Shown piece by piece: positions 1-20,082 of a stretch of DNA of 64,000 bases. The notes under the pieces were generated by a model. It was not told the origin of the DNA and did not search any database. It was given only the letters and a program-made list of their open reading frames with translations. Every line of letters starts with the position of its first letter. The first letter of the stretch is position 1. Source of the stretch: Maridesulfovibrio sp. (lineage in GTDB: Bacteria > Desulfobacterota > Desulfovibrionia > Desulfovibrionales > Desulfovibrionaceae); the NCBI RefSeq assembly GCF_963678865.1, contig NZ_OY787459.1:2012501-2076500 (forward strand), written 5' to 3'. Made by a program: the position numbers and the translations under genes.

Positions 1-1
1 A

Positions 2-463
2 GGCTTCGCGCGCGACTCCATCATGATGATGATGTCCTCCGAAGATTGGAACAAAGTTCTTCAGGTCCATCTGGGCGGTTTTTTCAATGTGACCAAGCCT
101 GTAGTTTCACGCATGTTGCGCAAACGGACCGGACGAATCATTAATATCGCTTCCACCTCTGGCGAAACAGGCGTTGCAGGACAGACAAACTACTCCGCCG
201 CCAAAGCCGGACTCATCGGAGCGACCCGATCGCTGGCCGTGGAGGTTGCCAAACGCAACATTCTGGTCAATGCCGTTACCCCCGGATTCATTGAAACGGA
301 CATGGTGGCAGAACTGCCCGTGGATCAGATCAAAAACCAAATTCCACTGAAAAGGCTGGGCAGCCCGCAGGAAGTCGCCGGAGTGGTTTCTTTTCTCTGC
401 TCGGACAAAGCCTCCTATATCACCGGCCAGACCATTGCTGTTAACGGCGGAATCCACACCTAA
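2..463 (+). CDS. fabG: 3-oxoacyl-ACP reductase (FabG-like SDR), 5' end cut by window
   Basis: NADPH-dependent reduction of 3-oxoacyl-ACP to 3-hydroxyacyl-ACP, presumably during chain building in this locus. The frame is open from base 2, and the residues before the first ATG (GFARDS) match the FabG segment after the NAG motif, so the start lies left of the window. Visible SDR features are the NIAS strand with its catalytic Ser, the YSAAK Tyr-x3-Lys catalytic pair, the NAVTPGFIETDM segment and the C-terminal GQTIAVNGG. The TAA stop is 18 bases before the next ketosynthase, so it is the first visible gene of the lipid operon. Which SDR subfamily it belongs to (housekeeping FabG or cluster-specific) cannot be decided; location favours cluster-specific. 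Confidence 0.9.
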   Translation, partial: GFARDSIMMMMSSEDWNKVLQVHLGGFFNVTKPVVSRMLRKRTGRIINIASTSGETGVAGQTNYSAAKAGLIGATRSLAVEVAKRNILVNAVTPGFIETDMVAELPVDQIKNQIPLKRLGSPQEVAGVVSFLCSDKASYITGQTIAVNGGIHT

Positions 464-481
464 TATTACGGAGATCATTCC

Positions 482-1696
482 TTGTATAAAGTGGCCATTA
501 CCGGAATCGGAGCTGTTTCAGTTCTTGGATCTGACTTAGAATCCATTGCCGATGCACTTCGAAATGGATATTCGGGCATTGAAGTTGACGAAGAACGGGT
601 CAAACTTGGATTCGACAGTCCGCTGACCGGGACCATCAAAGACTTCAATCCCAAAAAGTGGCTCTCCCGCAAGCAACGAAAAACCATGCCCGACTTCGCG
701 GTACAGGCATACGCAGCCGCAAAGCAGGCTCTGGATCAGTCCGGGCTGGCAGAAGAAAATCTTCAGAACGATGAAAGCGGACTTATTTTCGGTTGTGACT
801 CCAGTTGCATTGCCGCCCTTGATCAGGTGCAGTTGCTCAAAGAAAGGGGCGAAACTTCGCTCATCGGCAGCGGCGCTGTTTTCCGATCCATGACCTCTTG
901 CGTAACCATGAACCTGAATACGCTTTTCCAGACCCGAGGTGCGGCCTGGACCATAAGTTCAGCCTGCTCCAGTGGAGGGCATGCCGTAGGGCAGGCCTTC
1001 AATCTCATCGCTTCCGGGCAGCAGGAGAGAATAATCTGCGGAGGAGCGCAGGAACTCAACTGGCAGTCCATGTGCAGTTTTGACGGATTGGGAGCCTTCT
1101 CCTCCCGTACAGCCACTCCCGCTCAAGCCAGCCGCCCCTTTGATAAGGACCGCGACGGACTGGTTCCCAGCGGAGGTGCAGCAGCCATCATGCTGGAGCG
1201 TTACGATATCGCTGAAAAACGCGGAGCCAAAATTCTGGGTACGGTCAGCGGCTATGGTTTTTCCTCAGACGGGGAACATATTTCAGTTCCCGGCAGGGAA
1301 GGTCTGGCAAGGGCCGGAGCCAAGGCACTCAAACAGGCCGGACTGACCCCGGCGGACATAGACTACATCTGCGCCCACGCCACATCCACCCCGGCCGGAG
1401 ACATGGCAGAAGCAGCCAACATCAAAACCCTGTTCGATGAAAATTCACCGCGCATTTCCTCCACTAAATCCATGACCGGACATGAATTGTGGATGTCCGG
1501 GGCAAGTCAGGTAGTCTATACCACAATTATGAACCGTAACGGGTTCACCGCTCCGAATATCAATTTCACGGCTGGGGACGATGATACTGCCGGACTGAAC
1601 ATCCTCACAGAAACCGACAGCCAGCCTCCGCGAAAAGCCCTGCTCAATTCCGCTGGCTTCGGCGGAACCAACTCCTGCCTTATCCTTGAATTCTGA
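482..1696 (+). CDS. beta-ketoacyl-ACP synthase (FabF-like KS), first of three
   Basis: Condensing enzyme for decarboxylative chain extension on ACP. It is 404 aa, the usual KS length. The triad is intact: Cys162 in SSACSSGG, His299 in AHATSTPAGD, and Lys329/His334 in STKSMTGHE. The second His motif is followed by LWMSGASQ rather than the usual LGAAGA, a divergent sequence suggesting a specialised substrate. I chose the TTG start at 482 because the protein then begins MYKVAITGIGAVS, the standard KS N-terminus, with GGAG 9 to 13 bases upstream. The TGA stop overlaps the ATG of the next gene by one base, so translation is probably coupled. The KS assignment is firm; the role in a polyene-like pathway is inferred from neighbours. 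Confidence 0.93.
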   Translation: MYKVAITGIGAVSVLGSDLESIADALRNGYSGIEVDEERVKLGFDSPLTGTIKDFNPKKWLSRKQRKTMPDFAVQAYAAAKQALDQSGLAEENLQNDESGLIFGCDSSCIAALDQVQLLKERGETSLIGSGAVFRSMTSCVTMNLNTLFQTRGAAWTISSACSSGGHAVGQAFNLIASGQQERIICGGAQELNWQSMCSFDGLGAFSSRTATPAQASRPFDKDRDGLVPSGGAAAIMLERYDIAEKRGAKILGTVSGYGFSSDGEHISVPGREGLARAGAKALKQAGLTPADIDYICAHATSTPAGDMAEAANIKTLFDENSPRISSTKSMTGHELWMSGASQVVYTTIMNRNGFTAPNINFTAGDDDTAGLNILTETDSQPPRKALLNSAGFGGTNSCLILEF

Positions 1697-3192
1697 TGAC
1701 TGAATACGATCAAATTGTTGTGGGCGGGGGAATTTCCGGCATGACCTCGGCCCTGCTGCTGGCAAAACAGGGACATAAAGTCGCGCTGGTGGAAGCCTTT
1801 TCCCAGCCCGGCCCAACAGTGCGTGGCTTCAGCCGGAAAGGAATACATTTCGAAACCGGAATCCACCTTATCGGAGGACTGGGGGACGGCGATCCTCTCG
1901 ATATTTATTTCAAACATCTGGGTATCGGTCCTGATCTGGTCAAAATCCCTTTTAATCAGGATGGCTGCGACTGCTTCCGTTTTGAAAAACAGGGGAAACA
2001 AATCTGCCTGCCGCACGGGTATGAACGGGTCCGCCAAGTCCTGCACCGGAACTTCCCTGCAGAAAAGAGTGCCATTGACAAGTATCTGGATCGAATCAGG
2101 ACTATTTTTGATTCTTCATCATTTCTTAATTTCGAGCTGGATTTCAGTCTGGAATCAGCAGTCCATGACGAAAATGAATCCCTAAGCAACTACCTTGATT
2201 CCATAACTGACAATCAGGAACTGAAAGCCCTGCTATGCTGCCACACCCTGCTCTACGGCACCCCGCCGGAACAGGCTCCGCTCACTACCCACGCCCTTGT
2301 TTCCGGGTCATACTTCCGCTCCTCGCACACCATTGAAGGCGGCGGTAAAGCCTTGGCCGATGCGTACCGGAAACAGCTCGAAAAACACGGGGTGGATATT
2401 TTATGCGGAAAAAAAGCGACTCGCATCAGGTATGATGACAATAAAAATTTCAAGAGTTTGAGGCTGGATAACGGCCCCGAACTGCACGGCAGAATCTGCA
2501 TCTGGAGCGCGCACCCTGCAGCCATGCTGCTCGCAGTGGAAGACGGCGCTTTTCGTCCGGTCTACAAACGCAGGATTAATGAATTACAAGAAACCGTGTC
2601 TGCACTGATCCTTTTCGGGATTGCTGAAAATCCCGTGGAAGAACTTCAAGGGAAAAACATCTACCTCTGGCCGGAAACAGATTACAATAAAGTCCTTTCC
2701 GGGAAGACCGGGATGAAGGACAACGCTATTTTCCTTTCCGCTGGACAAACCCTTGGCCGTGGCGGCAGGCAGAGCATTACCGCCATCATGCCTTACGGTT
2801 TAGAAAATTTCAGTAAATGGCAGGACTCCGCTTTAAACGGCAGACCACAGGATTATCTTGATTTCAAATCCAAACTGATGGCCGAATTTACAGAGCAGGT
2901 CTTTACCCGCTGCCCGGAATTGAACGGACAGGTACAATTTATTGATGCGGCAACCCCGCTGACCCTGCGCGACTATTGCCACTCCCCATACGGAAGTATG
3001 TATGGAGCGGCGCATACCGTTTCGCAATACAACCCGCTACCGGCAACTAAAATCAAAGGATTGCTGCTGGCCGGACAATCCATAATTGCGCCCGGAGTCA
3101 TGGGGGCGGTGATTTCCGCTTATCTGACCTGCGGTTTCATCTGCGGGCACGAAAAAATCAACAAGGAACTCAGATGCATTTACAACGCGTAG
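1696..3192 (+). CDS. FAD-dependent oxidoreductase of the phytoene desaturase (CrtI/CrtO) family
   Basis: A flavoprotein with an N-terminal Rossmann dinucleotide motif (VVGGGISGMTSALLL, residues 8-22) and an acidic residue ending the second strand, and a C-terminal segment GLLLAGQSIIAPGVMGAV typical of the CrtI/retinol-saturase superfamily. At 498 aa it has normal length. Such enzymes desaturate, saturate or isomerise isoprenoid or acyl chains. No phytoene synthase or other carotenoid gene is visible, so a lipid-chain substrate is likelier here than phytoene. It lies between two ketosynthase genes, overlapping the upstream one by 1 base and the downstream one by 19. CrtI-like genes are, from memory, part of the gene set proposed for ladderane lipid synthesis; the reaction here is unknown. 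Confidence 0.85.
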   Translation: MTEYDQIVVGGGISGMTSALLLAKQGHKVALVEAFSQPGPTVRGFSRKGIHFETGIHLIGGLGDGDPLDIYFKHLGIGPDLVKIPFNQDGCDCFRFEKQGKQICLPHGYERVRQVLHRNFPAEKSAIDKYLDRIRTIFDSSSFLNFELDFSLESAVHDENESLSNYLDSITDNQELKALLCCHTLLYGTPPEQAPLTTHALVSGSYFRSSHTIEGGGKALADAYRKQLEKHGVDILCGKKATRIRYDDNKNFKSLRLDNGPELHGRICIWSAHPAAMLLAVEDGAFRPVYKRRINELQETVSALILFGIAENPVEELQGKNIYLWPETDYNKVLSGKTGMKDNAIFLSAGQTLGRGGRQSITAIMPYGLENFSKWQDSALNGRPQDYLDFKSKLMAEFTEQVFTRCPELNGQVQFIDAATPLTLRDYCHSPYGSMYGAAHTVSQYNPLPATKIKGLLLAGQSIIAPGVMGAVISAYLTCGFICGHEKINKELRCIYNA

Positions 3193-4403
3193 TCATCACC
3201 GGAATGGGGGCTGTTTCTCCGCTGGGCAACAGGGTGGAGGATCTTTGGAAAGGTCTGCTTGCAGGAAACTCCGGCATAACCCGTATGGAAGAGCTTGACG
3301 CGATAAAAGGATTACGCCCGCGCATTGCCGGCCGGGTTAAGGAAGTAAATGCCAAGGCAATACCCCGCAAAGCCCGCCGAACCATGTCCAACTTGTCGAT
3401 ATTTGCTTCCCTTGCCGCACTCGAGGCAATTGAACAGGCTGGAATAGACCAAGATACGCTGACAGGGGGAAGGACCGGACTTTCCGTAGGATCGACTACC
3501 GGGAGCTCACAGGCCCTCGAACAGTTCTTCAAACTGTACCTGCCTGAAAATTCCCTTGAAGCCATCCGCAGCACAGAATTTTTCAAAATAATGAACCACA
3601 GCGCAGCAGCCAACCTTGCCCAGTTTCTGGGTATCAGCGGACGGGTTATCGCCGCTTCCGCAGCCTGCTCCACCGGGTGCCAGAACATCGGACTGGCAGC
3701 GGAAGCTATTGCCACAGGCAGGCAGGATCTCATGCTCTGCGGCGGTACGGATGAACTGCATCCACTGACCGTGGGAACATTCGACATCATCGAAGCAGCC
3801 TCAATCGCCGAAATAGAGGACCCCGCCAGCGCATCCCGGCCATTTGACGCTAAACGGGACGGCATTGTCTGCTCCGAAGGAGCAGGCATACTGCTGCTCG
3901 AGAGCTATGAACATGCTACGGCTCGCGGAGCTGAAATTCTTGCTGAAATAAGCGGTTTTTCTTCCCTGTGCGACAGCAGCAACATGGCTTCCCCCAGTGC
4001 TCAGGCTATCAACCTCTGCATGGCTGAAGCCTTAAAGGAAGCCGGTATCAACGCGAAGGATATAGACTATGTAAACGCCCATGCCACCGGAACCCTGCAG
4101 GGGGATGCTTCCGAAGCACAGGCCATAGCAGAACTGCTCGGCGATACCGCCCCGGTAAGCAGCCTGAAAGGACATCTGGGCCATACCATGGCTGCCAGCG
4201 GCGCAATCGAAACAATAGCAACAGTACGCATGATGCAGGAAAACACAATAATTCCCACTGCAAACCTGAATATTCCTGCAGAGGAATGCTCGGCAATCAA
4301 CAACACCTTGCATTTGCTGGAAAGACCAATTACATATGCGCTGAAAAATAATTTCGCCCTTGGCGGTATAAATACATCGCTTGTTTTAAGGAGAATACAA
4401 TGA
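3174..4403 (+). CDS. beta-ketoacyl-ACP synthase (FabF-like KS), second of three
   Basis: A 409-aa KS with the complete catalytic set: Cys165 in SAACSTGC, His303 in NAHATGTLQGD and Lys332/His337 in LKGHLGHTMAASGA. The N-terminus MHLQRVVITGMGAVSPLG is the canonical KS start. The gene begins inside the end of the CrtI-like gene and its own TGA overlaps the ATG of the following ACP gene by four bases, so the KS and ACP are made together. Compared with the first KS, its motifs are closer to standard FabF. A locus with several KS genes usually divides labour between priming, elongation and chain-length control; which step this one performs is not visible. Confidence 0.94.
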   Translation: MHLQRVVITGMGAVSPLGNRVEDLWKGLLAGNSGITRMEELDAIKGLRPRIAGRVKEVNAKAIPRKARRTMSNLSIFASLAALEAIEQAGIDQDTLTGGRTGLSVGSTTGSSQALEQFFKLYLPENSLEAIRSTEFFKIMNHSAAANLAQFLGISGRVIAASAACSTGCQNIGLAAEAIATGRQDLMLCGGTDELHPLTVGTFDIIEAASIAEIEDPASASRPFDAKRDGIVCSEGAGILLLESYEHATARGAEILAEISGFSSLCDSSNMASPSAQAINLCMAEALKEAGINAKDIDYVNAHATGTLQGDASEAQAIAELLGDTAPVSSLKGHLGHTMAASGAIETIATVRMMQENTIIPTANLNIPAEECSAINNTLHLLERPITYALKNNFALGGINTSLVLRRIQ

Positions 4404-4654
4404 CCGATGAAGAAATAATCAAACGCATAAATTCCGCTTTAGCCGAGGAATTCGAACTGGAGTTGGATGAAATGGTCCCAGAAGCGGTATTTAAGGACGA
4501 CCTTGACCTCGACAGCCTTGACGCTGTGGATATGGTTATAGTCCTTGAACAGGAATTCGGGATCAAAATCAAAAAAGACGAAGCATTCAAAGCCATCCGA
4601 ACCCTCGGTGATTTGCATTCTTTCATTTTGGCTAAAAAAGACGAAGCCGCTTAG
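4400..4654 (+). CDS. acyl carrier protein, first of two
   Basis: An 84-aa acidic four-helix carrier protein. The phosphopantetheine attachment site is Ser39 in DLDLDSLDAVDMV, preceded by the usual conserved acidic stretch. It carries growing acyl chains between the locus enzymes in the cytoplasm. It overlaps the upstream KS gene (ATGA junction). A second ACP is present at 14482, and a pair of divergent ACPs is characteristic of aryl-polyene-type loci. No phosphopantetheinyl transferase gene is in the window, so activation would rely on one elsewhere. Confidence 0.95.
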   Translation: MTDEEIIKRINSALAEEFELELDEMVPEAVFKDDLDLDSLDAVDMVIVLEQEFGIKIKKDEAFKAIRTLGDLHSFILAKKDEAA

Positions 4655-4684
4655 ACTGTTGATAAAGCCGCCTTCATTCCCACA

Positions 4685-5437
4685 ATGTCCGCATTTCTCA
4701 AACTCATCCTAATTAACGCCGGGATATATCTCAGCATTATTTTATGGACCTTGATCGCGAGTGCAATATCCCCGTTCTGCTATCTGATCTTTACCCGCAT
4801 TCTTAAATGTGAAAAGCCGGAATCCCTGCGAAAAATGATCTGGTATTTCGGATGGATCAGTTCAAAACTGATGTCCATTTTTGTGGACATCAAATGGCCT
4901 GAACAGCGGAAAATGCCAGAGCAGTGCATCATTGTGGCCAACCATGAATCCTTTTTCGACCCCTATCTGGTTTCCTTTCAGCCGCAGCGCAACATCTGCA
5001 TGGCCGTGCGCAACTGGCCCTTTAAAATTCCATTTTACGGATTTTACATGAAGCTTGCGGGTTATATAAATGTTGAAACAGACGATCTGGAAACAATCAC
5101 CAGACAAGCTGAAAAAGCGGTAAAGCAGAAGGCTTCTCTTATGTTCTTTCCCGAAGGAACCAGAAGCGTAGACGGCACCCTGAACCGTTTTCACTCCGGG
5201 CCCTTCCATATTGCCATACAGACCGGCCTTCCCATCGTTCCGCTCTGTCTTACAGGCAGTTTTTGCATGCTCCCACGAGGGCATATGCTCATCCACCCGT
5301 CAAAAGTACGGGGCATGATTCTCGACCCGATTTACCCTCAACAATTCAAAACCAAACCAAATGCGCATATTGAATTGCGCCGAGCGGTTAAAACAACTAT
5401 GGTCTCATGCATTAGGAAAATGCATCAGGAAGCGTAA
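4685..5437 (+). CDS. 1-acylglycerol-3-phosphate acyltransferase-like (PlsC family)
   Basis: A membrane-bound glycerolipid acyltransferase of 250 aa. The N-terminal 35 residues form a hydrophobic anchor. The catalytic HX4D box is His87-x4-Asp92 in NHESFFD, and the phosphate-binding motif is FPEGTRS at 155-161. It probably transfers the locus acyl chain to a glycerol phosphate or similar acceptor. It follows the ACP gene by 30 bases and reads into the lipoprotein gene, with no terminator between. A second acyltransferase of the different LpxL family is encoded at 13535, so two acylation steps are plausible. A housekeeping PlsC role cannot be excluded but the location argues against it. Confidence 0.88.
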   Translation: MSAFLKLILINAGIYLSIILWTLIASAISPFCYLIFTRILKCEKPESLRKMIWYFGWISSKLMSIFVDIKWPEQRKMPEQCIIVANHESFFDPYLVSFQPQRNICMAVRNWPFKIPFYGFYMKLAGYINVETDDLETITRQAEKAVKQKASLMFFPEGTRSVDGTLNRFHSGPFHIAIQTGLPIVPLCLTGSFCMLPRGHMLIHPSKVRGMILDPIYPQQFKTKPNAHIELRRAVKTTMVSCIRKMHQEA

Positions 5438-5480
5438 CAGCTATTTTTCAACTCCCACTATCAAGATGAGGAAATTAAAG

Positions 5481-5876
5481 ATGAAAAATCTCCGTATTGT
5501 TGCTTTTGTACTGATTGTCTGCGCACTTTTTCTCGGCGGATGCAGAACAGCTCCCATTCAGAACATTGAAATGGCCCCGATAGTAGCCGCCAACCAGCAG
5601 GCCCGTTCCATGGAAAGTGTTAAAAATGCCATTATCAAAGGCGGATACAGCCTCGGCTGGCAGATGAGTGATGTCGCACCCGGACATCTCGTGGGCACAC
5701 TGAATATCCGTTCTCATCAGGCCGTGGTAGACATCACCTACACCCCTGAAACATACAGCATCAATTACAAGGACAGCACCAACCTGAAACACAAGGGAAA
5801 TACCATCCACAGCAATTACAATGCCTGGGTCAAAAATCTCGCCGGTGCTATCAACCGAGAACTGGGTCAGATCTAA
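5481..5876 (+). CDS. small lipoprotein, function unknown
   Basis: A 131-aa predicted lipoprotein. The signal peptide MKNLRIVAFVLIVCALFLGGC ends in an LGGC lipobox with Cys21 as the acylated residue; RTAP follows, with no Asp at +2, so outer-membrane sorting is expected. The start at 5481 is supported by GAGGAA seven bases upstream; the frame is open further 5' but the longer versions bury the signal peptide. The mature part is about 110 residues and contains SYSINYKDSTNL and a repeated pattern of short strands. I do not recognise a family. It sits between the PlsC-like gene and a strong hairpin, so it likely ends the first transcriptional segment of the locus. Confidence 0.8.
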   Translation: MKNLRIVAFVLIVCALFLGGCRTAPIQNIEMAPIVAANQQARSMESVKNAIIKGGYSLGWQMSDVAPGHLVGTLNIRSHQAVVDITYTPETYSINYKDSTNLKHKGNTIHSNYNAWVKNLAGAINRELGQI

Positions 5877-5914
5877 AAGACAAAGACTTCAAGAAGACTT
5901 AACAAACCCTGATC

Positions 5915-5957
5915 GCTGTTTTTTGCAGCCCCTTTTAGCGGGCTGCAAAAAAACAGC
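5915..5957. terminator. strong hairpin inside the lipid locus (terminator or attenuator)
   Basis: An inverted repeat: left arm 5915-5931, right arm 5940-5957, identical on folding except for one extra base in an A/T run. The arms contain GCAGCCC/GGGCTGC next to six T (left) and seven A (right), so the structure looks terminator-like when read on either strand. It lies 38 bases after the lipoprotein stop and about 105 bases before the next gene, the only sizeable gap in the locus. It could lower expression of the downstream part or separate two transcripts. Confidence 0.6.
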
Positions 5958-6061
5958 TTTACTGAACGACCTCCTTCCGCCGGATACCCTGACAAAAACG
6001 TCTCCACGGACCTAAGAGCCGTCGTCTGTCGCCATAATTTTCTGAAATTCAGGATACTTTC

Positions 6062-6559
6062 ATGAACCTCCCCATGCAGGCTGAAAAACTGCTGCCCCAT
6101 CGAGGACAGATGCTGCTCATCGACAGTGTTCTCACTGCCGAAGACGAAACCGGAACAGTGCTGGCCGATCTTTCCACGCAGGGCATATCCAAAGGACCGG
6201 ACGGCAACCTGCTGCCACCGTTTTACATTGAACTGGTAGCGCAGGCTTACGCCGCCATATGCGGTTACCGCCTTAAATCCACCGGGAAATCCATTCCTGA
6301 AGGATATCTGGTAGGGGTACAAAAATTCCAGATCATCCCCCAACCGTCTAATAAAAAATGGAACAGCAACGAACTGCTGATCAGTGTACAGACATTAGGG
6401 GACTTTGACGGTTTTGCCGTAGTTGAAGGAACTGTCAGCCGCGAAGGAATCACACTGGCAGAAGGAAGGATCAAGCTCTTCGTACCGCAGGATGAATCCA
6501 TTGCAGAACTGGCAGCGCGGACCAAATCCGGGGAAAACGTATCTTCATGGCAGCTGTAA
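6062..6559 (+). CDS. 3-hydroxyacyl-ACP dehydratase-like hot-dog protein (ApeP/FabZ type)
   Basis: A 165-aa single hot-dog domain. The LPHRGQMLLIDSV segment (residues 11-23) matches the aryl-polyene dehydratase family, where the loop His (here His13) is conserved, and FYIELVAQAYAA corresponds to the central helix, with Glu available as an acid/base. The expected reaction is dehydration of 3-hydroxyacyl-ACP to trans-2-enoyl-ACP, which with no enoyl reductase in the locus would give conjugated double bonds. It follows the hairpin at 5915 and overlaps the LolA-like gene by 13 bases. A second, different dehydratase is encoded at 10107. Confidence 0.82.
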   Translation: MNLPMQAEKLLPHRGQMLLIDSVLTAEDETGTVLADLSTQGISKGPDGNLLPPFYIELVAQAYAAICGYRLKSTGKSIPEGYLVGVQKFQIIPQPSNKKWNSNELLISVQTLGDFDGFAVVEGTVSREGITLAEGRIKLFVPQDESIAELAARTKSGENVSSWQL

Positions 6560-7179
6560 GAAAAACAATCTTGATCGCACTTCTGATGCTTCTGCTGTCA
6601 GCGGGAAGTGTTCTGGCGGATAAACAAGCTGAATTCTTAAAGGATCTGCAAACCAGCTCACAATCAATATCTTCCATCAGCAGTGAGTTCAGCCAGCAGA
6701 GCCATATAGCCCTTTTTGCAGACAATGTTGAATCAAAAGGAAAATTTTACTTTACTCGCCCGGATAACCTGCGTTGGGAGTACAGTGCTCCTTTTGTCTC
6801 CGGTTTCCTGCTCAAAGGACAGCAAGGATTAAAATGGGACGGGACAGCCAAGGAACCGACAGAATTCAGCACAGAAACATCGCCGGAAATGGCAGTTATC
6901 ACCGAGCAGATTCTGGCATGGACAACCATGAATATTCCATGGCTGCAGTCGCTGTACAACATCAAGGTTACAAATTTCAGCCCGGCAGTTATGGAACTGA
7001 CCCCAAAATCAAGTAAGGCCAGACAATTCCTAAACCTGATCCGCATCTTTTTTTCTCCGCAAGCCACCCACCTTGAGAGCATTGAACTTCATGAACCGGG
7101 CGGAGATTACACGAAAATAACTTTTTCAAACGTACAGTTAAACCAGAAAATACCGCAGGATATATTCCTCAAAGAGTAA
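6547..7179 (+). CDS. LolA-like periplasmic lipid/lipoprotein carrier
   Basis: A 210-aa secreted protein with a Sec signal (KTILIALLMLLLSAGSVLA, cut near residue 24) and a LolA-type fold signature: an N-terminal helix with SISSEFSQ, then GKFYFTRPDNLRWEYSAP, the classic LolA strand. Such proteins shuttle hydrophobic cargo across the periplasm. In aryl-polyene-type loci a LolA homologue accompanies an MMPL exporter, and here the MMPL gene begins two bases after this stop. It is therefore probably cargo-specific for the locus lipid rather than the cell's general LolA. Confidence 0.85.
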   Translation: MAAVRKTILIALLMLLLSAGSVLADKQAEFLKDLQTSSQSISSISSEFSQQSHIALFADNVESKGKFYFTRPDNLRWEYSAPFVSGFLLKGQQGLKWDGTAKEPTEFSTETSPEMAVITEQILAWTTMNIPWLQSLYNIKVTNFSPAVMELTPKSSKARQFLNLIRIFFSPQATHLESIELHEPGGDYTKITFSNVQLNQKIPQDIFLKE

Positions 7180-7181
7180 AA

Positions 7182-10104: not shown

Positions 10105-10106
10105 CC

Positions 10107-10972: not shown

Positions 10973-10979
10973 GAAGGCC

Positions 10980-12374
10980 ATGGCAACTGTTTTTCTAATC
11001 TCCACAAACACCAATGTTGAACCCTACCCGGTATATCCTATCGGCATGTCAGTTATTGCCGGTCCGCTGCACGCGGCAGGACACAAGGTTATCCAGTACG
11101 ACATGCTGGCTGCCGGTAATTCTCTTGAGCATCTACGAAAAACACTGGCTGAAACCACGCCGCAATATGCTGGAATATCCATCCGCAATGTAGACAACGT
11201 AGATTCCTTCACCTCTCATACCAACAAGTACATCTACAAAGCCAAGCTCATAGTTGATGTGCTGAAAGAATCCGGAATCCCGATCATTGCCGGAGGAGCT
11301 GGGTTCTCCCTGCTGCCGGAAGAAATCCTTGAATATACCGGGGCGGACTATGGAATTGTGGGGGAAGGCGAACGCAAGATGGTCGACCTCATCAACAGGC
11401 TTGAGCATGGTGAAACAGCTCCGCGAATTTACGGCAAAGAAGAAGGAATTTCCGGGGCTGATATTCCAATGCCACGCTGGGACCATGAACTGCTGAGCTA
11501 TTATCTTGCTCAGAGCGGGGTCTTGAACGTACAGACCAAGCGCGGATGCGAGCATCGCTGCGCCTACTGTACATACCCTTATCTGGAAGGACGCAAAATG
11601 CGGGTCCGCCCGGTGGATGAAGTTGCTGACGAGCTTGAAATGCTTTGCAAATATGGAGCGGACAATATTTTCTTCACAGACTCAGTGCTTAATGACCGGG
11701 GTGGTCACTATCTGCTGCTGGCCGAAGAAATTATACGCCGGAAGATTAAAATAAGCTGGTGCGGTTTTTTCCAGCCCGGTCCCGTTGAAAATGACCAACT
11801 GGTTCTACTCAAACGCTCCGGCCTGCACGCAATGGAGGTGGGTACAGACGCCACCAGTGATACAACGCTGCAAGCATTGCACAAAAGTTTCAGCTTTGAT
11901 GAAGTAATGGATTTCAATGAAAAATGTATTCGGCAAAGAATCCCCTGTGCGCACTTTGTAATTTTCGGAGGTCCCGGCGAAACCATGGACACGGTTCGCG
12001 AGGGGATCGTAAACATGAACTTACTACGCAATTGCGTGGTTTTCCCCTTTTCAGGGATCAGGCTGCACGAAGGAACTCCGCTCTTTACAAGAGCGGTCAA
12101 AGAAGGTTTAATCCGCCCCGGACAATCGCTGCTGGAACCTTTCTACTACTTCTCCCCCGGCCTTGATAAAGATGAAATGAACGCGGCCCTGATCGAAGGA
12201 TTCAAAAGACGCAGGGATAGACTGTTCCCTCCTGACGAGGGGCAACAACGCATTAACATTATGAAAAAATTCGGATTCCGGGGAATTCTCTGGGATCAGC
12301 TGATAAAATTCGATGACCAGCCCGGAAAGAAAACACCTTCTCAACCAGTCACAGATTCCGCTCATGCAGATTAA
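10980..12374 (+). CDS. B12-binding radical SAM protein, ladderane-locus type
   Basis: A 464-aa cytoplasmic enzyme with an N-terminal cobalamin-binding Rossmann domain (about 1-145) and a radical SAM barrel (about 180-410). The SAM cluster motif CxxxCxxC is Cys190-Cys194-Cys197 in RGCEHRCAYCTYP. In the B12 domain the motif expected as DxHxxG reads DMLAAG at 41-46, so the axial His is absent, as in many B12 radical SAM enzymes. The overall sequence fits the family I remember as associated with lipid loci proposed for ladderane synthesis. Reactions of such enzymes include methylation, ring contraction and cyclisation at unactivated carbons; which applies is unknown. It overlaps the glycosyltransferase gene by 11 bases. 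Confidence 0.88.
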   Translation: MATVFLISTNTNVEPYPVYPIGMSVIAGPLHAAGHKVIQYDMLAAGNSLEHLRKTLAETTPQYAGISIRNVDNVDSFTSHTNKYIYKAKLIVDVLKESGIPIIAGGAGFSLLPEEILEYTGADYGIVGEGERKMVDLINRLEHGETAPRIYGKEEGISGADIPMPRWDHELLSYYLAQSGVLNVQTKRGCEHRCAYCTYPYLEGRKMRVRPVDEVADELEMLCKYGADNIFFTDSVLNDRGGHYLLLAEEIIRRKIKISWCGFFQPGPVENDQLVLLKRSGLHAMEVGTDATSDTTLQALHKSFSFDEVMDFNEKCIRQRIPCAHFVIFGGPGETMDTVREGIVNMNLLRNCVVFPFSGIRLHEGTPLFTRAVKEGLIRPGQSLLEPFYYFSPGLDKDEMNAALIEGFKRRRDRLFPPDEGQQRINIMKKFGFRGILWDQLIKFDDQPGKKTPSQPVTDSAHAD

Positions 12375-13548
12375 ACCGCTAATAGTTATCCCGGTATACA
12401 ACCACGGCTCCACCCTGCGCGATGTCGCAGAGCGGGCCTTGAAGCACGGCGAAGTTCTCATTCTCGACGACGGAAGTACGGACGGAGGGCCGGATGCTGT
12501 TGAGGATATGGACCTCACCGTAATTTCCCACGATGAAAACCTAGGCAAAGGGCAGGCCATCCTCACTGCAGCTGAAAAAGCACGAGAGCTGGGTAAAACC
12601 CACATCATCACCATTGATGCCGACGGCCAACATTTTCCCGAAGAGATTCCTAAATTTATCAAAGCGATCCAACAAAGCCCGGAAACTATTTTCGTAGGCA
12701 GCAGGAACTTTGAAGGGCAGAACGTGCCCGGTGCTGCAAAGTTCGGGCGCAGCTTCTCCAATTTCTGGCTACGGGTCCAGACCGGAATAAAAATAAACGA
12801 CGTACAGAGTGGATTCAGGGCCTATCCCCTTGAAATCTTTTCCGTAGCAAAGACTTCCGAATCCCGCTACGCCTTTGAAGTGGAGATACTGGTCAAATCA
12901 GCATGGGCCGGATACGATCTAAAAGACCTGCCTATTGAAGTCTATTATCCCAACCCGGAGGAACGGGTTTCCCACTTTGATACCTTTAAAGATAATATTC
13001 GCATCTCGCTGCTTAACACCAGGCTGACCATGCGTTCCTTCGTGCCCCTGCCCCACCGTCAGTACGCAAAGGATGAAGAAGGTAAAATAACTCCCATTCA
13101 CCCCCTGCGCTCACTGCGAATACTGCTTTGCAAGGATGAAACCCCGCTCAAACTGGCTATTGCCGGAGCAATAGGTATGCTGCTGGGTACTTTACCGCTT
13201 ATAGCAATGCACTCCATTGCTATCATACTTTTTTGCGGTTTCTTCCGGCTGAGCAAAATAACCGGGCTGGCGGTCAGTCAGTTGTGTATTCCCCCGTTTG
13301 TTCCGGCCCTGTGTATCGAAGCCGGACATTACATGCGCTACAATAAATTCCTGACCGAAATCTCTTTGCAGACCATCGGTTACGAAGCGCTGGACCGTTT
13401 TTATGAATGGGTGCTTGGATCTCTTGTATTGGGACCGCTCTTTGCCGCAATTATAGGTATTACGATTTACATTATGGCATTTACCATTAAACGGTTTTTA
13501 GATATTAAACCGCAGCAGTGTGGAAAAAGTCACCATGAAACGCGATAA
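12364..13548 (+). CDS. glycosyltransferase family 2 with C-terminal DUF2062 membrane domain
   Basis: A 394-aa protein in two parts. Residues 1-230 are a GT2 domain: VIPVYNHGSTLRD at the N-terminus, LDDGSTDGG, and the metal-binding DAD at 85-87 in TIDADGQHFP, like polyprenyl-phosphate sugar transferases. Residues about 255-380 are a DUF2062 membrane domain with three to four TM segments. I chose the ATG at 12364, immediately before the GT2 core; an ATG at 12313 in the same frame adds 17 unsupported residues, and neither has a clear ribosome site. It likely glycosylates the lipid or its carrier at the inner membrane. GT2-DUF2062 proteins are a standard part of aryl-polyene-type loci. Confidence 0.87.
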   Translation: MQIKPLIVIPVYNHGSTLRDVAERALKHGEVLILDDGSTDGGPDAVEDMDLTVISHDENLGKGQAILTAAEKARELGKTHIITIDADGQHFPEEIPKFIKAIQQSPETIFVGSRNFEGQNVPGAAKFGRSFSNFWLRVQTGIKINDVQSGFRAYPLEIFSVAKTSESRYAFEVEILVKSAWAGYDLKDLPIEVYYPNPEERVSHFDTFKDNIRISLLNTRLTMRSFVPLPHRQYAKDEEGKITPIHPLRSLRILLCKDETPLKLAIAGAIGMLLGTLPLIAMHSIAIILFCGFFRLSKITGLAVSQLCIPPFVPALCIEAGHYMRYNKFLTEISLQTIGYEALDRFYEWVLGSLVLGPLFAAIIGITIYIMAFTIKRFLDIKPQQCGKSHHETR

Positions 13549-14458
13549 GAAATGGTCCAGTAAAAGTCTGGCTCCCGCGTTTTTCCACAATTTTTTTTAC
13601 GGGGTGATCAAACTGCTGGGCAGACCGGGGGCATACGCCATGCTCTTCTTTGTGGTTGTCTTTTACTGCCTGCTGCCCGGAGTGAGGAAAAGGCCAGCGG
13701 AATACATCCGCCGCCGTTTTGGAAAACAGAATGCTGCCAGCAAATTGAAACACACCTTCCTGCTCTACTGGAACTTCGGAAAAATGCTGGTGGACCGTGC
13801 AGTACTGCGCATTCTGGGAGATTTCAAAGCCCATGGACCGGATAAAGACATTAGCCTGCTGCAGGAACTCTATGCTGAACACAAACGGCTGATCCTGTTG
13901 ACCGCGCACGTAGGCTGCTGGCAAATGGGACTTTCATATCTCGGATTTCTGGATGCCCCCAAAGCGGTGGTCATGCTCATGGAACGCGGGGATGTGGACA
14001 AACATTCCTTTAAATGGAAAAGCTCGGGCGGAGAAGAAAAGGAAGAAGAAGTAACGATCATCAACCCGGCAGCACCATTGGGTGGAACACTTGAAATGCT
14101 CACTGCCCTGCGTGAGAATTCCGTGCTCTGTATCAACGGAGACCGGACTATGGGAAAGAGCAGGCATAATGTGCAGCTTAATTTTCTGGGCGGGAAAATC
14201 GAACTTCCGATCACTCCGTTCAAAATTGCGGCAACAACAGAAACCCCTGTGGCAATTGTCTTTTCCATCCGCAGCAAGGCAGGGGAAGGGAAATTCCGGG
14301 TAGCACGGGTAATCAACGTGCCTGCAGATACAGGCAAAGGGGAAATCCGCGGTCCCGAAGCTTTCACCCCTTATGCACAACAATTTTCAGCTGAACTGGA
14401 AAAGTATTGTCAGGAAAACCCCTACCAATTCTACAATTTTTTTAACATGTGGAATTAA
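13535..14458 (+). CDS. LpxL/HtrB-type lipid acyltransferase
   Basis: A 307-aa membrane acyltransferase of the lysophospholipid acyltransferase superfamily, with an N-terminal anchor (AMLFFVVVFYCLLPG). The active-site box reads HVGCWQ, that is His-x4-Gln instead of the usual His-x4-Asp/Glu; the rest of the fold is well kept, for example VLCINGDRTMG and PFKIAATTETPVAIVF. The ATG at 13535 has GGAA upstream; a GTG at 13520 in frame would add five residues. The gene starts within the end of the GT2 gene. It probably acylates a glycosylated lipid intermediate with the locus chain. The Gln replacement may alter activity. Confidence 0.85.
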   Translation: MKRDKKWSSKSLAPAFFHNFFYGVIKLLGRPGAYAMLFFVVVFYCLLPGVRKRPAEYIRRRFGKQNAASKLKHTFLLYWNFGKMLVDRAVLRILGDFKAHGPDKDISLLQELYAEHKRLILLTAHVGCWQMGLSYLGFLDAPKAVVMLMERGDVDKHSFKWKSSGGEEKEEEVTIINPAAPLGGTLEMLTALRENSVLCINGDRTMGKSRHNVQLNFLGGKIELPITPFKIAATTETPVAIVFSIRSKAGEGKFRVARVINVPADTGKGEIRGPEAFTPYAQQFSAELEKYCQENPYQFYNFFNMWN

Positions 14459-14481
14459 CGAATCCTTACAAAGAGGCAAAA

Positions 14482-14727
14482 TTGCATACCAAACTCAAAG
14501 AACTGCTGATTGAAGAACTGAACCTCATCGACGTCACCGTCGACGAAATCGAAAACGATGCGCCCCTCTTCGGAGAAGGACTCGGTCTTGACTCTCTCGA
14601 TGCTGTGGAAATCGTTGTACTGGTCCAGAAGAACTTCAACGTTGAAATCAAAAACATGGAAGAAGGCAAGGCTGCCTTCCAGAGCGTAAACAGTCTAGTG
14701 GACTTCATCAGGGAAAAACAGGCTTAA
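14482..14727 (+). CDS. acyl carrier protein, second of two
   Basis: An 81-aa carrier protein with the phosphopantetheine Ser in GLGLDSLDAVEIV. I set the start at the TTG at 14482 because AAGAGG lies five bases upstream and the length is then the family norm; a GTG at 14449, overlapping the acyltransferase stop, would add 11 residues. It differs clearly from the first ACP at 4400, so the two may serve different steps (chain building against starter loading or transfer). It lies directly before a KS and CLF-like pair, the arrangement of a minimal type II synthase. Confidence 0.92.
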   Translation: MHTKLKELLIEELNLIDVTVDEIENDAPLFGEGLGLDSLDAVEIVVLVQKNFNVEIKNMEEGKAAFQSVNSLVDFIREKQA

Positions 14728-14730
14728 GTC

Positions 14731-15921
14731 ATGGACCTTCCCGTCAATATCTGCGCCGTCGGCTGTATCTGTGCCGCTGGAAAGGATAGCCGCGCATGTT
14801 TTGATACCATGTTGCACGGGGATGTCCGGCCCACTTTCAAACCCGGTTTTTCATATGACCAACCCATGTCCTCCCCCGTTTTCGCAGTAAAGCAGGAGTG
14901 GATTAAGCGGCAGGAACAAAATCCCCCGCTGACAGAGACTATAAAACTCCTTTTTCAAGCAGCGGACGAGGCTCTGGCACAAGCCGGACTGACCCCGCAA
15001 AAACTCGGCGGCCTTAAGGTCGGATCCTGCATCGGCTCTTCCACCGGGGCATCGCTTAATTTCATGCCTTTTTACCAGCAATGGCGGGAAGAGAAAGAAC
15101 CGGATCTTAAAATTATTGAGAGCTACTTGTCCTGCAATCCGGCAACAGCCGTAGCGGATAGATACGCCCTGAACGGTCCGGTGCAGACCGTAACCAATGC
15201 CTGCTCTTCCGGCACCGATGCCATCGGCATAGGATCATCGTGGATAAGACAGGGACTTTGCGATCTGGTTATTGCCGGAGGCGCCGACGCCCTGAGCGGA
15301 ATTTCCTACACCGGTTTTTCCCGGCTGATGATCACCAGCCCGGAAAGATGCCGCCCCTTTGACAAAGACAGGCAAGGCCTGAATCTGGGAGAAGGCGCGG
15401 CTACAGTTATCCTTGCAGGGGAAAAAGCCATGCAGGAACTGCAACTCAATTCCATGGCGAAGGTTATTGGCTACGGCACCTGCTGCGATGCCCACCACCT
15501 GACTGCACCACATCCTGAGGGTTCCGGACTGAAACAGGCCATAAACGATGCTCTGCAACGCAGCGGCATAACAGCTTCCGACATAGGATTCATTAACGTA
15601 CACGGCACAGGCACAGAGAATAACGACCGTATTGAAGGTCAGGTCATAAGGGATTTATTTCCCCGCACCACTTTCACAGGGATCAAAGGATTCACCGGGC
15701 ATACTTTAGGCGCTGCAGGAGCTATAGAAGCGGTCATGACTGTAATGTCGCTTAAACACGGGTTGCTAATGCCCACCTCTGGATTCCGTGAGGCTTCGGC
15801 TAAATCAAACGCAATCCCGGTGACCGCAAAATCTTCAATAAAGGCCGAATACGCACTTAGTGATTCACTGGCTTTCGGCGGAAACAATTCCGCCCTTGTC
15901 TTTAAAAAGGGGGCAGCATGA
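14731..15921 (+). CDS. beta-ketoacyl-ACP synthase, third; catalytic partner of the CLF-like gene
   Basis: A 396-aa KS with Cys in TNACSSGTDA, His in NVHGTGTENND and Lys/His in GIKGFTGHTLGAAGA, so the catalytic set is complete. Its stop overlaps the start of the chain-length-factor-like gene at 15918 by four bases, the arrangement expected for a KS-CLF heterodimer as in aryl-polyene and type II polyketide synthases. It also directly follows the second ACP. It is thus the best candidate for the iterative elongating enzyme of the locus. Confidence 0.93.
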   Translation: MDLPVNICAVGCICAAGKDSRACFDTMLHGDVRPTFKPGFSYDQPMSSPVFAVKQEWIKRQEQNPPLTETIKLLFQAADEALAQAGLTPQKLGGLKVGSCIGSSTGASLNFMPFYQQWREEKEPDLKIIESYLSCNPATAVADRYALNGPVQTVTNACSSGTDAIGIGSSWIRQGLCDLVIAGGADALSGISYTGFSRLMITSPERCRPFDKDRQGLNLGEGAATVILAGEKAMQELQLNSMAKVIGYGTCCDAHHLTAPHPEGSGLKQAINDALQRSGITASDIGFINVHGTGTENNDRIEGQVIRDLFPRTTFTGIKGFTGHTLGAAGAIEAVMTVMSLKHGLLMPTSGFREASAKSNAIPVTAKSSIKAEYALSDSLAFGGNNSALVFKKGAA

Positions 15922-16811
15922 TACGCCTAGCCCTGCACGGGATCGGAACAGCTCTAGCAGAAGCCGGAAACAATGTAGATACCTCCGATCTGAATTCATA
16001 TTTTGCTCCCCGCCGTTTACGCAGGGTGGACCACTTCACACGCATGACCATGCTGGCCGGGTGTCGCGCCCTGCATGACGCAGCCGGAACAGAACAAAAA
16101 GACCTCAAGACCGCACTCCCCCTGCCCGAGAACATGGGTATTGTTGTCAGTACCGGATTCGGCCCCTCGCAAACCACTTTTGAATTTCTGGATTCCATAA
16201 TAGACCACGGAGCAGACTGTGCCTCACCGCTGTCATTTTCCCACTCGGTACATAATATCCCGGCAGCGACCATGAGTATTTTCCTGAACAACCCCAAGCC
16301 CAACACCACTATCTGCCAACTGCACGGCCCCTTAATGACCGGGTTGCAGACATCCGCATGCTGGCTGGCAGAAGAAAGAGTCCAGAAGGTGTTGCTTGGC
16401 GTCGTGGATGAAAAAACTCCCCTGCTCGAAGATAACTCCCGCCGATTGCTGGACCGTAAGGCCCCCCGGTGTAAACATCTTCCTGTCGGAGAAGGAGCGT
16501 GCTTTTTTCTGCTTAGTGCAGTTGAAAATGGTGCCGAAGCAAAATACGGAACATTGGAAATGGAGAATCTTTCCCCGCAGGAACTGCAGGAAACAGGATT
16601 ACCCGGTCGGGTCCTTGCCCCAGCCCGCATACTGCCCAGACTGGAAAACCTTCACCTTAGAGCTACGGCCACACAACAGGCAGACACGCCTTGCGCTGCC
16701 GGACCGGAACTTGCCTTTGCCGCGATTCAGGCTATGGACAAAGGAGAAAGCTGCTGCATTGAGCAATGCGGAAACAATTTCGGGCTTATCACCGTAAAAC
16801 CACAAGGCTGA
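15918..16811 (+). CDS. KS-like chain-length-factor partner, Cys replaced by Gln
   Basis: A 297-aa protein of the ketosynthase-like fold, about 100 residues shorter than a full KS. Aligning TICQLHG (132-138) with the NACSSG active site of its neighbour puts Gln134 at the catalytic Cys position, the replacement known in chain-length factors of type II polyketide synthases. The C-terminal His and Lys motifs are missing, although FGLITVKP at the end resembles the last KS strand. It is translationally coupled to the third KS (15918 overlaps its stop). It probably forms a heterodimer with it and sets chain length. It could alternatively be a decayed KS, but the uninterrupted frame and coupling argue against that. 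Confidence 0.78.
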   Translation: MIRLALHGIGTALAEAGNNVDTSDLNSYFAPRRLRRVDHFTRMTMLAGCRALHDAAGTEQKDLKTALPLPENMGIVVSTGFGPSQTTFEFLDSIIDHGADCASPLSFSHSVHNIPAATMSIFLNNPKPNTTICQLHGPLMTGLQTSACWLAEERVQKVLLGVVDEKTPLLEDNSRRLLDRKAPRCKHLPVGEGACFFLLSAVENGAEAKYGTLEMENLSPQELQETGLPGRVLAPARILPRLENLHLRATATQQADTPCAAGPELAFAAIQAMDKGESCCIEQCGNNFGLITVKPQG

Positions 16812-16814
16812 CCC

Positions 16815-17975
16815 ATGACTGCAAAGCTGTCACTTACTGCGCAGGACATAGCGGAAATGATCTCGTCAACGCTACTTGCGGAAATGGATTACAGCCGGAA
16901 GCTGGAATTTTGCACAGGGCAGTCCCTGGCCGGAGATTTTATACCCCTTAATACGATCTTTCAGGACCCGGAAAGAATTCTTGAACGGATCGGAATGCAG
17001 TTCGGTATTGAATCATCACAACTGGCGGGTAAAGACATTAACCTGATGGCGGAACTGATCCTGAATCAAACAGGAGGCAGGCCTTGCCGGGTAACATTTT
17101 TCACATCCGGCAGCACCGGCACACCGGTTCCTGCAGCATCGAACTTCACCGACCTTGAACAGGAAATCCATTCTCTTGCAAGTATCTTCCCGGATCGCAG
17201 GCGGGTGGTCAGCTTTGTGCCCCGGCACCATATTTACGGATTCCTGTTTTCTATCCTGCTCCCCAAAGCACTGGGGGTGCCGAAAGAATACAGCCCTCCC
17301 CTGCCCGGCATGGAGCAGATAAAAAAAATGCGCAACGGCGACCTGATCATTGCCTTCCCGCTGCTCTGGAAAAAGCTTGAAAATCTGGACGGAGTCTTCC
17401 CTGAAAATGTATTCGGGGTGACTTCAACCGGGCCATGTCCGGCAGAAACAATTACTGGCCTGCAGGCACAGGGGCTGGCCCGCATGACAGAAGTCTACGG
17501 TTCATCAGAGACAGGCGGAGTTGGATTTCGTCATGACCCTTCGGGCATGTATACCCTGCTGAGCCACTGGAAAAAAACAGGGGACTCCACCATCGAACGG
17601 ACTTCGGCAACGGGAGACAAACAACAGCATGTCCTGCAGGATCATCTCGAATGGCAGGGAGCCCGGTTCCGACCGCTTAAACGGGCCGACAAAGCCGTAC
17701 AGGTTGGGGGGATAAACGTTTATCCGGCACGGGTGGAAAATTTCTTCAGAGAATTACCTCAGGTCAGGGATTGTTGCGTAAGGCTCATGAGAGCAGATGA
17801 AGGGGAAAGATTAAAGATTTTTATAGTTCCGGCCTCTGAGAAAGAAAACGCAGCCCTTGAAAAAGAGCTGCGTAATCTGGCGATTGATAAACTTTCCCAT
17901 CACGAAAAACCCGGAAAATATAATTTCGGACCAAGCCTGCCCGTGTCAAATATTGGTAAGCTCAGCGACTGGTAA
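16815..17975 (+). CDS. adenylate-forming acyl ligase (aryl-polyene AMP-ligase type)
   Basis: A 386-aa member of the ANL superfamily, shorter than the usual 500. It has the ATP-binding loop FFTSGSTGTPVP (about 95-106), the VYGSSETGGVG motif (about 231-241), the hinge-region RADKAVQVGGINVYP (about 295-309) and a C-terminal SNIGKLSDW that carries the catalytic Lys of the A10 motif. The N-terminal region before the loop is short, as in the ligases of aryl-polyene loci that activate a starter acid and load it on ACP. The natural acid is unknown; no ammonia lyase for an aryl starter is in the window. It is the last gene of the + strand locus and ends two bases from a convergent gene. Confidence 0.85.
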   Translation: MTAKLSLTAQDIAEMISSTLLAEMDYSRKLEFCTGQSLAGDFIPLNTIFQDPERILERIGMQFGIESSQLAGKDINLMAELILNQTGGRPCRVTFFTSGSTGTPVPAASNFTDLEQEIHSLASIFPDRRRVVSFVPRHHIYGFLFSILLPKALGVPKEYSPPLPGMEQIKKMRNGDLIIAFPLLWKKLENLDGVFPENVFGVTSTGPCPAETITGLQAQGLARMTEVYGSSETGGVGFRHDPSGMYTLLSHWKKTGDSTIERTSATGDKQQHVLQDHLEWQGARFRPLKRADKAVQVGGINVYPARVENFFRELPQVRDCCVRLMRADEGERLKIFIVPASEKENAALEKELRNLAIDKLSHHEKPGKYNFGPSLPVSNIGKLSDW

Positions 17976-17977
17976 AA

Positions 17978-19947: not shown

Positions 19948-19990
19948 AGTTAATGCTCCAAATGGATTTAATAAGTTCAAAATCCATAAA

Positions 19991-20005
19991 GCATTATTGA
20001 TGCCA
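19991..20005 (-). promoter_or_regulatory. candidate sigma-54 promoter of nifV
   Basis: Read on the minus strand the site is TGGCAT-N5-ATGC, with GG and GC ten bases apart as sigma-54 requires. The -12 half is weaker than consensus. It predicts a start near 19979, giving a leader of about 32 bases before the nifV ATG. Confidence 0.5.
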
Positions 20006-20082
20006 AAACTCACCGTCCGCCTATCTACCTTAATTTATATAAAATACTCTTCTATCTGCCCTTCCTGCACAACCTGCAAAAA

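Follow-up and report, generated by a model that had tools for sequence, protein, structure and literature searches.

A Maridesulfovibrio locus of the aryl-polyene kind with a putative B12-dependent methylase in place of ApeB

Genes of the aryl-polyene (APE) type stand together with enzymes associated with ladderane lipids in one gene cluster of Maridesulfovibrio sp., which raises the question of what kind of lipid such a cluster makes. We examined it in a window of 64,000 nucleotides, the whole stretch of DNA analysed here, which covers positions 2012501-2076500 of a single-contig 4.35-Mb genome (GCF_963678865.1, contig NZ_OY787459.1). The locus comprises 20 genes, all on the + strand, from a FabG gene that starts at window position -259 (negative numbers lie to the left of the window) to an AMP ligase gene that ends at 17975. 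From its sequence we consider it fairly probable that this is an APE-type type II polyketide locus, which would send a conjugated polyene lipid to the outer membrane and would employ a B12-dependent C-methylase.

Likeness to the E. coli aryl-polyene locus

Gene families were read from Pfam and NCBIfam scans of the window and upstream proteins, and the APE locus of Escherichia coli CFT073 (apeA-apeR, 18 genes, NC_004431, our sequence L175; gene names as in PMC8253772) served as the yardstick. With phmmer, whose E-values here refer to 18-20 sequences alone, 16 of the 20 window proteins matched the E. coli locus, and 14 of the 18 ape genes formed reciprocal best pairs, the weakest at 18.5 bits. 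These pairs and a ketosynthase (KS) tree supported the suggestion of an earlier note on this DNA that the gene set matches APE loci.

The chain-assembly genes common to the window and E. coli are ApeR- and ApeO-type KSs, two acyl carrier proteins (ACPs), FabG, two dehydratases, a thioesterase and a ligase. KS2 (3174-4403) is the reciprocal best match of ApeR at 312 bits and KS3 (14731-15921) that of ApeO at 178 bits, while KS1 (482-1696), recognised by Pfam, is a second ApeR-type KS (193.7 bits to ApeR). All four catalytic residues (C/H/K/H) are kept in KS1, KS2 and KS3; none is kept in the KS-like chain-length factor (15918-16811, PF13723), where they read H/S/A/D, so that the alignment bore out the earlier count of three KSs and one KS-like chain-length factor. 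KS3 and this catalytically empty protein are adjacent, the pairing of ApeO with a KS-like partner known from APE loci, and the chain-length factor would take the ApeC role. The KS tree was a quick search on 85 selected rows, including one ordinary FabF from the same genome, with SH-aLRT supports. KS2 grouped with ApeR (99) and the KS1 group adjoined both (99); the partner of KS3 was ApeO (95); and the chain-length factor fell into the ApeC-containing group (95), with ApeC and ApeO on long branches and among the long rows listed.

FabG (-259 to 463, L003:14242-14964, 240 aa), a 3-ketoacyl reductase by Pfam, is the reciprocal best match of ApeQ and scored 311.9 against a cut-off of 273 for the general FabG model NF004200. 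ACP1 (4400-4654) and ACP2 (14449-14727), both PF00550, pair reciprocally with ApeF and ApeE. Of the two hot-dog dehydratases, the ApeP-type one (6062-6559) is the reciprocal best match of ApeP (hhalign 98.6%; PF22817 at 23.5 bits, below the cut-off of 27), and the FabA/FabZ-type one (10107-10493, PF07977) forms the 18.5-bit pair with ApeI (hhalign 97.3%). The 4HBT thioesterase (10493-10972, PF13279/PF03061) pairs with ApeK, and the AMP ligase (16815-17975) with ApeH; the latter lies near the 4-coumarate-CoA ligase family (TIGR02372, 272.1 bits against a cut-off of 334.7).

Attachment and export genes are likewise shared, namely the GT2 glycosyltransferase (ApeJ), PlsC (ApeD), LolA (ApeL), MMPL (ApeM) and the ApeA lipoprotein. 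The PlsC-type acyltransferase (4685-5437, PF01553), the LolA-like periplasmic carrier (6547-7179, PF03548) and the MMPL/RND exporter (7182-9572, PF03176) are reciprocal best matches of their E. coli counterparts. So is the ApeA-like lipoprotein of 131 aa (5481-5876, 75 bits), which had no NCBIfam match and whose longer frame, 5361-5876, had no Pfam match. ApeJ corresponds to two separate genes: the GT2 glycosyltransferase with DUF2062 (12313-13548, PF00535 and PF09835), its reciprocal best match for the N-terminal part, and an LpxL-type acyltransferase (13520-14458, PF03279; 31 bits) for the other part. Gene order differs as well. The DUF3261/ApeN-like lipoprotein (9565-10104) is a weak assignment at 74% by hhalign, with no match in Pfam, in NCBIfam or, by phmmer, in the E. 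coli locus.

The earlier note had listed 19 genes running in one direction with almost no gaps. All 19 were recovered in that direction, the DUF3261 lipoprotein only weakly and by profile comparison, and the ApeA-type gene had been missed; intergenic space is minimal throughout the locus, with the sole exception of 5877-6061.

Relative to E. coli, KS1 and the CrtI-like and TIGR04072 proteins are extra in the window, and the ApeB methyltransferase and ApeG are missing. The window proteins without a phmmer match are the CrtI-like protein, the TIGR04072 protein, the DUF3261-like protein and the chain-length factor; the unmatched E. coli genes are ApeB, ApeC, ApeG and ApeN. In the related loci L035-L054, L064-L155 and L176-L200, many of which are cut by their flanks, phmmer gave no match to ApeB or ApeG at E<=1e-3. 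To our knowledge, ApeB is not present in every APE locus. ApeGLMN are described as conserved across APE loci (PMC8253772). Judging from its genes, the locus would work like an APE locus, as a variant of the aryl-polyene kind; strict APE membership is a narrower and less certain claim, as ApeB and ApeG are lacking.

A resemblance to the flexirubin-type loci of Bacteroidota was also seen. FabG scored 319.1 against a cut-off of 340 for FlxB and the LolA-like protein 120.9 bits against 125 for flexirubin LolA2, both just below. Several Bacteroidota loci with a radical SAM relative (L149, L151 and L152) share FabG, KS1, the ACPs, LpxL, KS3 and the chain-length factor. The difference lies in DarB, which was not found: of the two FabH-like genes in the genome, the one scanned scored 49.1, where the cut-off for StlD/DarB is 450, DarA not being sought.

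The radical SAM and CrtI-like proteins

In E. coli the aromatic head of the APE is thought to be methylated by ApeB (PMC8253772). The candidate for this role in the window is a B12-binding radical S-adenosylmethionine (SAM) protein (10980-12374), which scored 678.6 bits against a cut-off of 360 for the NCBIfam family TIGR04072, 'rSAM_ladder_B12'. The next families were BzaD (TIGR04385, 194.7 against 450), which we take to C-methylate an aromatic ring, and TsrM (TIGR04428, 140.9 against 500). With TsrM, the tryptophan C2-methylase of PDB 6wte, the protein shares B12 and radical SAM domains and Arg69. A profile of 22 radical SAM relatives aligned with TsrM residues 5-419 (E 1.2e-59), and the four best PDB matches of an AlphaFold2 model (pLDDT 92, from 39 sequences) were all TsrM chains (query-normalised TM 0.80, E 1.8e-29), the other listed matches reaching at most 0.69.

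In TsrM, Arg69 lies under the cobalt, whose lower face it keeps free, and Glu273 blocks SAM from the cluster (PMC8992657); the lower face of cobalamin is occupied by Asn or Trp in other enzymes (PMC13331322). Counting along the printed alignment, we placed Arg69 at R69 and Glu273 at V236 of the window protein. Arginine stands at position 69 in 101 of 102 rows, made up of the 101-row branch of the window protein and L075, as well as in 7/7 rows of a branch that holds anammox copies and 3/3 of an anammox paralogue, compared with 0/6 of the other, widespread anammox enzyme. With Arg69 kept and Glu273 lost, the enzyme would retain the first TsrM feature yet be free for radical chemistry. Sequence and model together suggest a methyl-adding enzyme rather than a ladderane builder, and we infer that the TIGR04072 protein may be a cobalamin-dependent C-methylase that replaces ApeB.

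The earlier note had instead tied this protein to ladderanes. The family name supports that link, as do published clusters: Fab-type clusters with SAM radical enzymes were proposed for ladderanes in Desulfotalea psychrophila and Kuenenia, and Geobacter and Pelobacter have comparable ones (PMC2649909). Clusters that antiSMASH calls 'ladderane' are reported from Desulfobacterota and other phyla, although ladderanes have not been shown in these bacteria, as the same publication states (PMC9902471). Compared by published description, the D. psychrophila and Kuenenia clusters share with the window Fab genes, SAM radical enzymes, phytoene-dehydrogenase-like proteins, a glycosyltransferase, a ligase and a membrane protein, the window differing in having one radical SAM protein (PMC2649909). 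According to the same source, D. psychrophila, which has a syntenic cluster, had no ladderanes. In function the link was not supported, given the TsrM match above and the occurrence and trees that follow.

Anammox genera are considered to contain ladderanes as a rule. A search of 294 planctomycete genomes for hydrazine synthase alpha (PF18582) gave some match in 57, from which we chose, on this single marker, 17 anammox candidates (one or two matches, E<=3e-19, a frame of 809-844 aa); planctomycete bins can be incomplete. The TIGR04072 cut-off was passed in 3/17 (440, 418 and 412 bits). A radical SAM match at E<=1e-20 was present in all 17, and in 10, including these three, there was a protein of 300-340 bits, below the cut-off. 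A CrtI-like protein (E<=1e-10, 25-28% identity) occurred in 15/17: in six inspected genomes its neighbours are genes for an ACP, KS and dehydratases, together with a radical SAM protein from a different group, and in the other nine a radical SAM match adjoins it, as read from coordinates.

The trees of radical SAM and CrtI-like proteins were quick searches with SH-aLRT supports, in which long branches that meet were flagged. Among 123 radical SAM rows, the three planctomycete TIGR04072 copies and four Desulfobacterota loci formed a 7-row branch (99) separate from the 101-row group to which the window protein belongs (95), and the widespread anammox enzyme was far away. The CrtI-like protein of the window (1696-3192), an FAD oxidoreductase of the amine-oxidase/CrtI type (PF01593, 67.6 bits), had been read as the anammox ladderane type; the tree contradicts this, with the eight usable anammox proteins in one group (99) and the window protein in a 16-row group of its own phylum (94, not starred). 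The row L187_CrtI_4353 (14 bits) was disregarded as a chance match on a very long branch, and the CrtI gene of the third TIGR04072-bearing planctomycete, split over two frames in L180, was left out. The phylogeny that the earlier note had proposed thus placed KS2 and KS3 with ApeR and ApeO, and neither the radical SAM nor the KS proteins with the widespread anammox enzymes; the radical SAM, CrtI-like and KS proteins of the window do not group with the common anammox set, whose genes were inspected in six genomes.

Ladderane synthesis by the window locus is therefore unlikely, given the tree mismatch, the occurrence of TIGR04072 in 3/17 candidates and the lack of ladderanes reported for D. psychrophila. 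Four other loci of the same phylum, L050, L051, L052 and L053, are of another kind, and their radical SAM proteins group with the anammox TIGR04072 copies, as do the KS proteins of L051 and L053; these loci are better objects than the window for comparison with anammox bacteria.

The CrtI-like protein scored below the cut-off of every NCBIfam family among the best 25 of 31 (CrtD, 98.6 against 549.7; the crtI_fam phytoene desaturase TIGR02734, 64.1 against 238.1). The structure nearest to its model (pLDDT 83.9, from 8 sequences) was the gamma-carotenoid desaturase 4rep at a query TM of 0.76, and a polyene substrate is plausible. The anammox CrtI-like proteins are reported to have given no lycopene in E. 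coli (PMC4790861).

Putative pathway and alternatives

In the pathway that we propose, the ApeH-like ligase would load an acid, probably aromatic, on an ACP, the ApeR-like KS2 would initiate the chain, and KS3 with the chain-length factor, the ApeO/ApeC-like pair, would elongate it by malonyl units. FabG and the ApeI- and ApeP-type dehydratases would leave a double bond per step, to be removed by no enoyl reductase of the locus. The thioesterase would free the polyene acid; GT2, LpxL and PlsC would join it to a lipid anchor; and MMPL, LolA and the ApeN/ApeA-like lipoproteins would carry the product to the outer membrane. The TIGR04072 enzyme may C-methylate the aromatic head or the polyene in place of ApeB, and the CrtI-like flavoprotein may desaturate, isomerise or reduce a polyene double bond.

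The earlier note had remarked that neither an enoyl reductase nor an ammonia lyase was visible and had left starter and saturation open. An ammonia lyase was indeed not found in the genome, but neither absence is an anomaly for this pathway: an enoyl reductase is not required for a conjugated polyene, and 4-hydroxybenzoate, which ApeH would load, is the predicted starter of the E. coli APE (PMC8253772).

Several results weigh against the proposal. The radical SAM protein falls below both the TsrM and the BzaD cut-offs, and by target-normalised TM (TsrM 0.66-0.71, MgmA 0.71, AprD4 0.69) TsrM has no lead. Glu273 is not kept: of 102 rows, 85 have V and 14 have I at position 236, and with this residue lost the chemistry may differ from that of TsrM. 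Arg69 is a feature of TsrM and only possibly a mark of methylases in general. Many relatives have genes that are not in the window, namely an extra one of the KS3 type and one or two for additional radical SAM proteins, so the TIGR04072 enzyme need not be the lone substitute for ApeB; the search for methyltransferases was aimed at ApeB homologues. With regard to the APE assignment, ApeG had no phmmer match in the window, the chain-length factor and the DUF3261-like protein miss ApeC and ApeN in single-sequence search, and by hhalign the chain-length factor is a better fit to ketosynthases (ApeO 97%, ApeR 98%) than to ApeC (93.9%). Searches of the genome found neither an aromatic ammonia lyase nor UbiC. 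Finally, a radical SAM relative above the TIGR04072 cut-off is held by Flammeovirga sp. SJP92 (L151, Bacteroidota), a genus which we take to be not strictly anaerobic, and this speaks against a purely anaerobic reason for the exchange of ApeB.

Some of these points favour a related reading, which we regard as rather unlikely: an APE-type polyene is made, and the radical SAM enzyme is no methylase but cyclises, rearranges or dehydrates the chain or shapes a sugar head. The missing Glu273 would permit radical chemistry, and the diol dehydratase AprD4, with a target-normalised TM near that of TsrM, and OxsB are structural neighbours too. The conserved Arg69 and the first place of TsrM by E-value and query-normalised TM speak for the methylase instead.

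We hold it unlikely that the product is a non-aromatic polyene or polyunsaturated fatty acid with a fatty acid as its starter, the route that Rattray et al. put forward for D. psychrophila. The lack of both ammonia lyase and UbiC would suit such a starter, and D. psychrophila has C31:8 and C31:9 hydrocarbons along with its syntenic cluster (PMC2649909). Against it, the closest family of the AMP ligase is 4-coumarate-CoA ligase, and the genes for export and glycosylation suggest a lipid of the envelope. A head-to-head route of the OleA type is also unlikely. OleA presumably belongs to PF08541, for which the genome has two FabH-like genes; one stands beside the FabG-ACP-KS genes of L004, and the second scores best with FabH-type models, with no ole-like gene nearby in the 3.3 kb of sequence retrieved around it.

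A ladderane or other cyclobutane lipid, for which the B12 radical SAM enzyme would fold the polyene through a radical cascade of the kind suggested for anammox bacteria, is very improbable, since the TIGR04072 score and the antiSMASH calls that favour it are set against the 3/17 occurrence, the separate 7-row branch, the CrtI-radical SAM pair of 15/17 candidates, which belongs to other groups, and the absence of ladderanes reported for D. psychrophila.

Going beyond this locus, we offer as a tentative and rather doubtful generalisation that TIGR04072 is a TsrM-like C-methylase used instead of ApeB, and that the 'ladderane' loci outside anammox bacteria would represent one large class of methylated, APE-type outer-membrane lipids, mostly from anoxic habitats and spread over at least 10 phyla by record titles. 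It would give these clusters a concrete alternative to the 'ladderane' label, and the search for ladderane genes in anammox bacteria would be better aimed at the CrtI-radical SAM pair (15/17) than at TIGR04072 (3/17). If the methylase reading is true, B12 chemistry would act on a polyketide-type polyene, and the envelope lipid would come from anoxic habitats, in which protection against reactive oxygen, the role commonly given to APEs, is not an obvious function. Similar clusters are already in print under the 'ladderane' label (PMC2649909, PMC9902471). In the literature searched we found no publication linking the TIGR04072-type radical SAM family with APEs and no use of the term TIGR04072, nor did we find there the correspondence with APE loci gene by gene, the departure from the anammox gene set or the TsrM-like active site.

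Distribution and neighbourhood of the locus

The radical SAM gene was present in 9/16 sampled congeners, in 0/7 genomes of other genera of the family and in 0/10 family members of a phylum sample; in that sample, 113/297 genomes had some radical SAM relative at E<=1e-40, not all of them TIGR04072. A related locus is also present in L112, titled Halodesulfovibrio (Desulfovibrionaceae). Gene order was identical in 9/9 fetched congener stretches as far as covered, with all 20 genes in six and the other three cut by contig or stretch ends. This shared order, parts of which recur in named loci of other phyla, indicates that the arrangement is not due to chance.

Among named genomes, we kept the best 80 of at least 565 stretches encoding radical SAM relatives, some of which show little beyond the radical SAM gene itself. 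By title these 80 belong to Thermodesulfobacteriota, Lentisphaerota, Verrucomicrobiota, Kiritimatiellota, Omnitrophota, Planctomycetota, Nitrospirota, Acidobacteriota, Elusimicrobiota, Bacteroidota and others, and are mostly metagenome bins. Judged by the radical SAM protein, the closest among the matches listed was 'Desulfovibrio sp. UBA2564' at 85% identity, which places the host of the window among sulfate reducers related to Desulfovibrio. The four relatives scored for TIGR04072 (L103, L105, L117 and L151) were all above the cut-off. Two of the carriers have strain names in their records, Victivallis vadensis DSM 14823 (L134) and Flammeovirga sp. SJP92 (L151). Across 79 fetched loci of at least 16 kb with a radical SAM match above 180 bits (congeners included, a few genomes entered twice, many cut by flanks), KS3-type genes were found in 69, LpxL in 63, GT2 in 60, the chain-length factor in 59, LolA in 51 and MMPL in 48. 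CrtI stood beside a KS2-type gene in 19 of the 23 places with enough upstream sequence, eight of the 19 being congeners; in a 20th, L035, it lies inside a longer frame that was not counted, and it is absent in L054, L124 and L143. In L124, an Elusimicrobia bin with a radical SAM relative, opposite-strand frames match E. coli ApeC and ApeN directly.

On detailed inspection, L041 and L098 have a second KS-like partner, and directly after the chain-length factor both carry a gene of the PagL type, a lipid A deacylase family (L041:17452-18048, L098:17456-18037), a neighbour that hints at an outer-membrane lipid as the anchor. Further on, L098 has a BtrH_N/DUF4872 gene.

The start of FabG at -259 agrees with the earlier statement that the 5' end lies outside the window, but the expected extension well to the left was not borne out: once the sequence was extended, the next family-matched gene was a GAF-PAS-GGDEF gene (L003:12328-13812, window -2173 to -689). 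It adjoins FabG in congeners G299, G306 and G311, is absent from the nearest 0.85-1.0 kb in G309 and G310, and could not be judged in the other four. Congener G297 lacks both the GGDEF gene and the locus, as a single block of about 20.3 kb: the left neighbour, which reaches window -2311, and the right one, which begins at 17982, end there at positions 9306 and 9345 of L201. The GGDEF gene is a possible cyclic di-GMP link of the locus. Between it and FabG, at about window -620 to -450, lies a small open frame with a lipoprotein-like start.

A promoter scan upstream of FabG found none, and the terminator-like count there equalled the shuffled mean; over window 1-18200, both strands, promoter-like sites were fewer than the shuffled mean (8 against 16.5) and terminator-like sites more (38 against 23.7). 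No RNA reached the gathering score in an Rfam scan of the window. Downstream, an opposite-strand gene pair (17978-20013), the second HMGL/homocitrate-synthase-like, is followed by nitrogenase genes, and far beyond it the minus strand encodes a 1799-aa hybrid sensor kinase (56496-61895) with four SBP_bac_3 (solute-binding) stretches.

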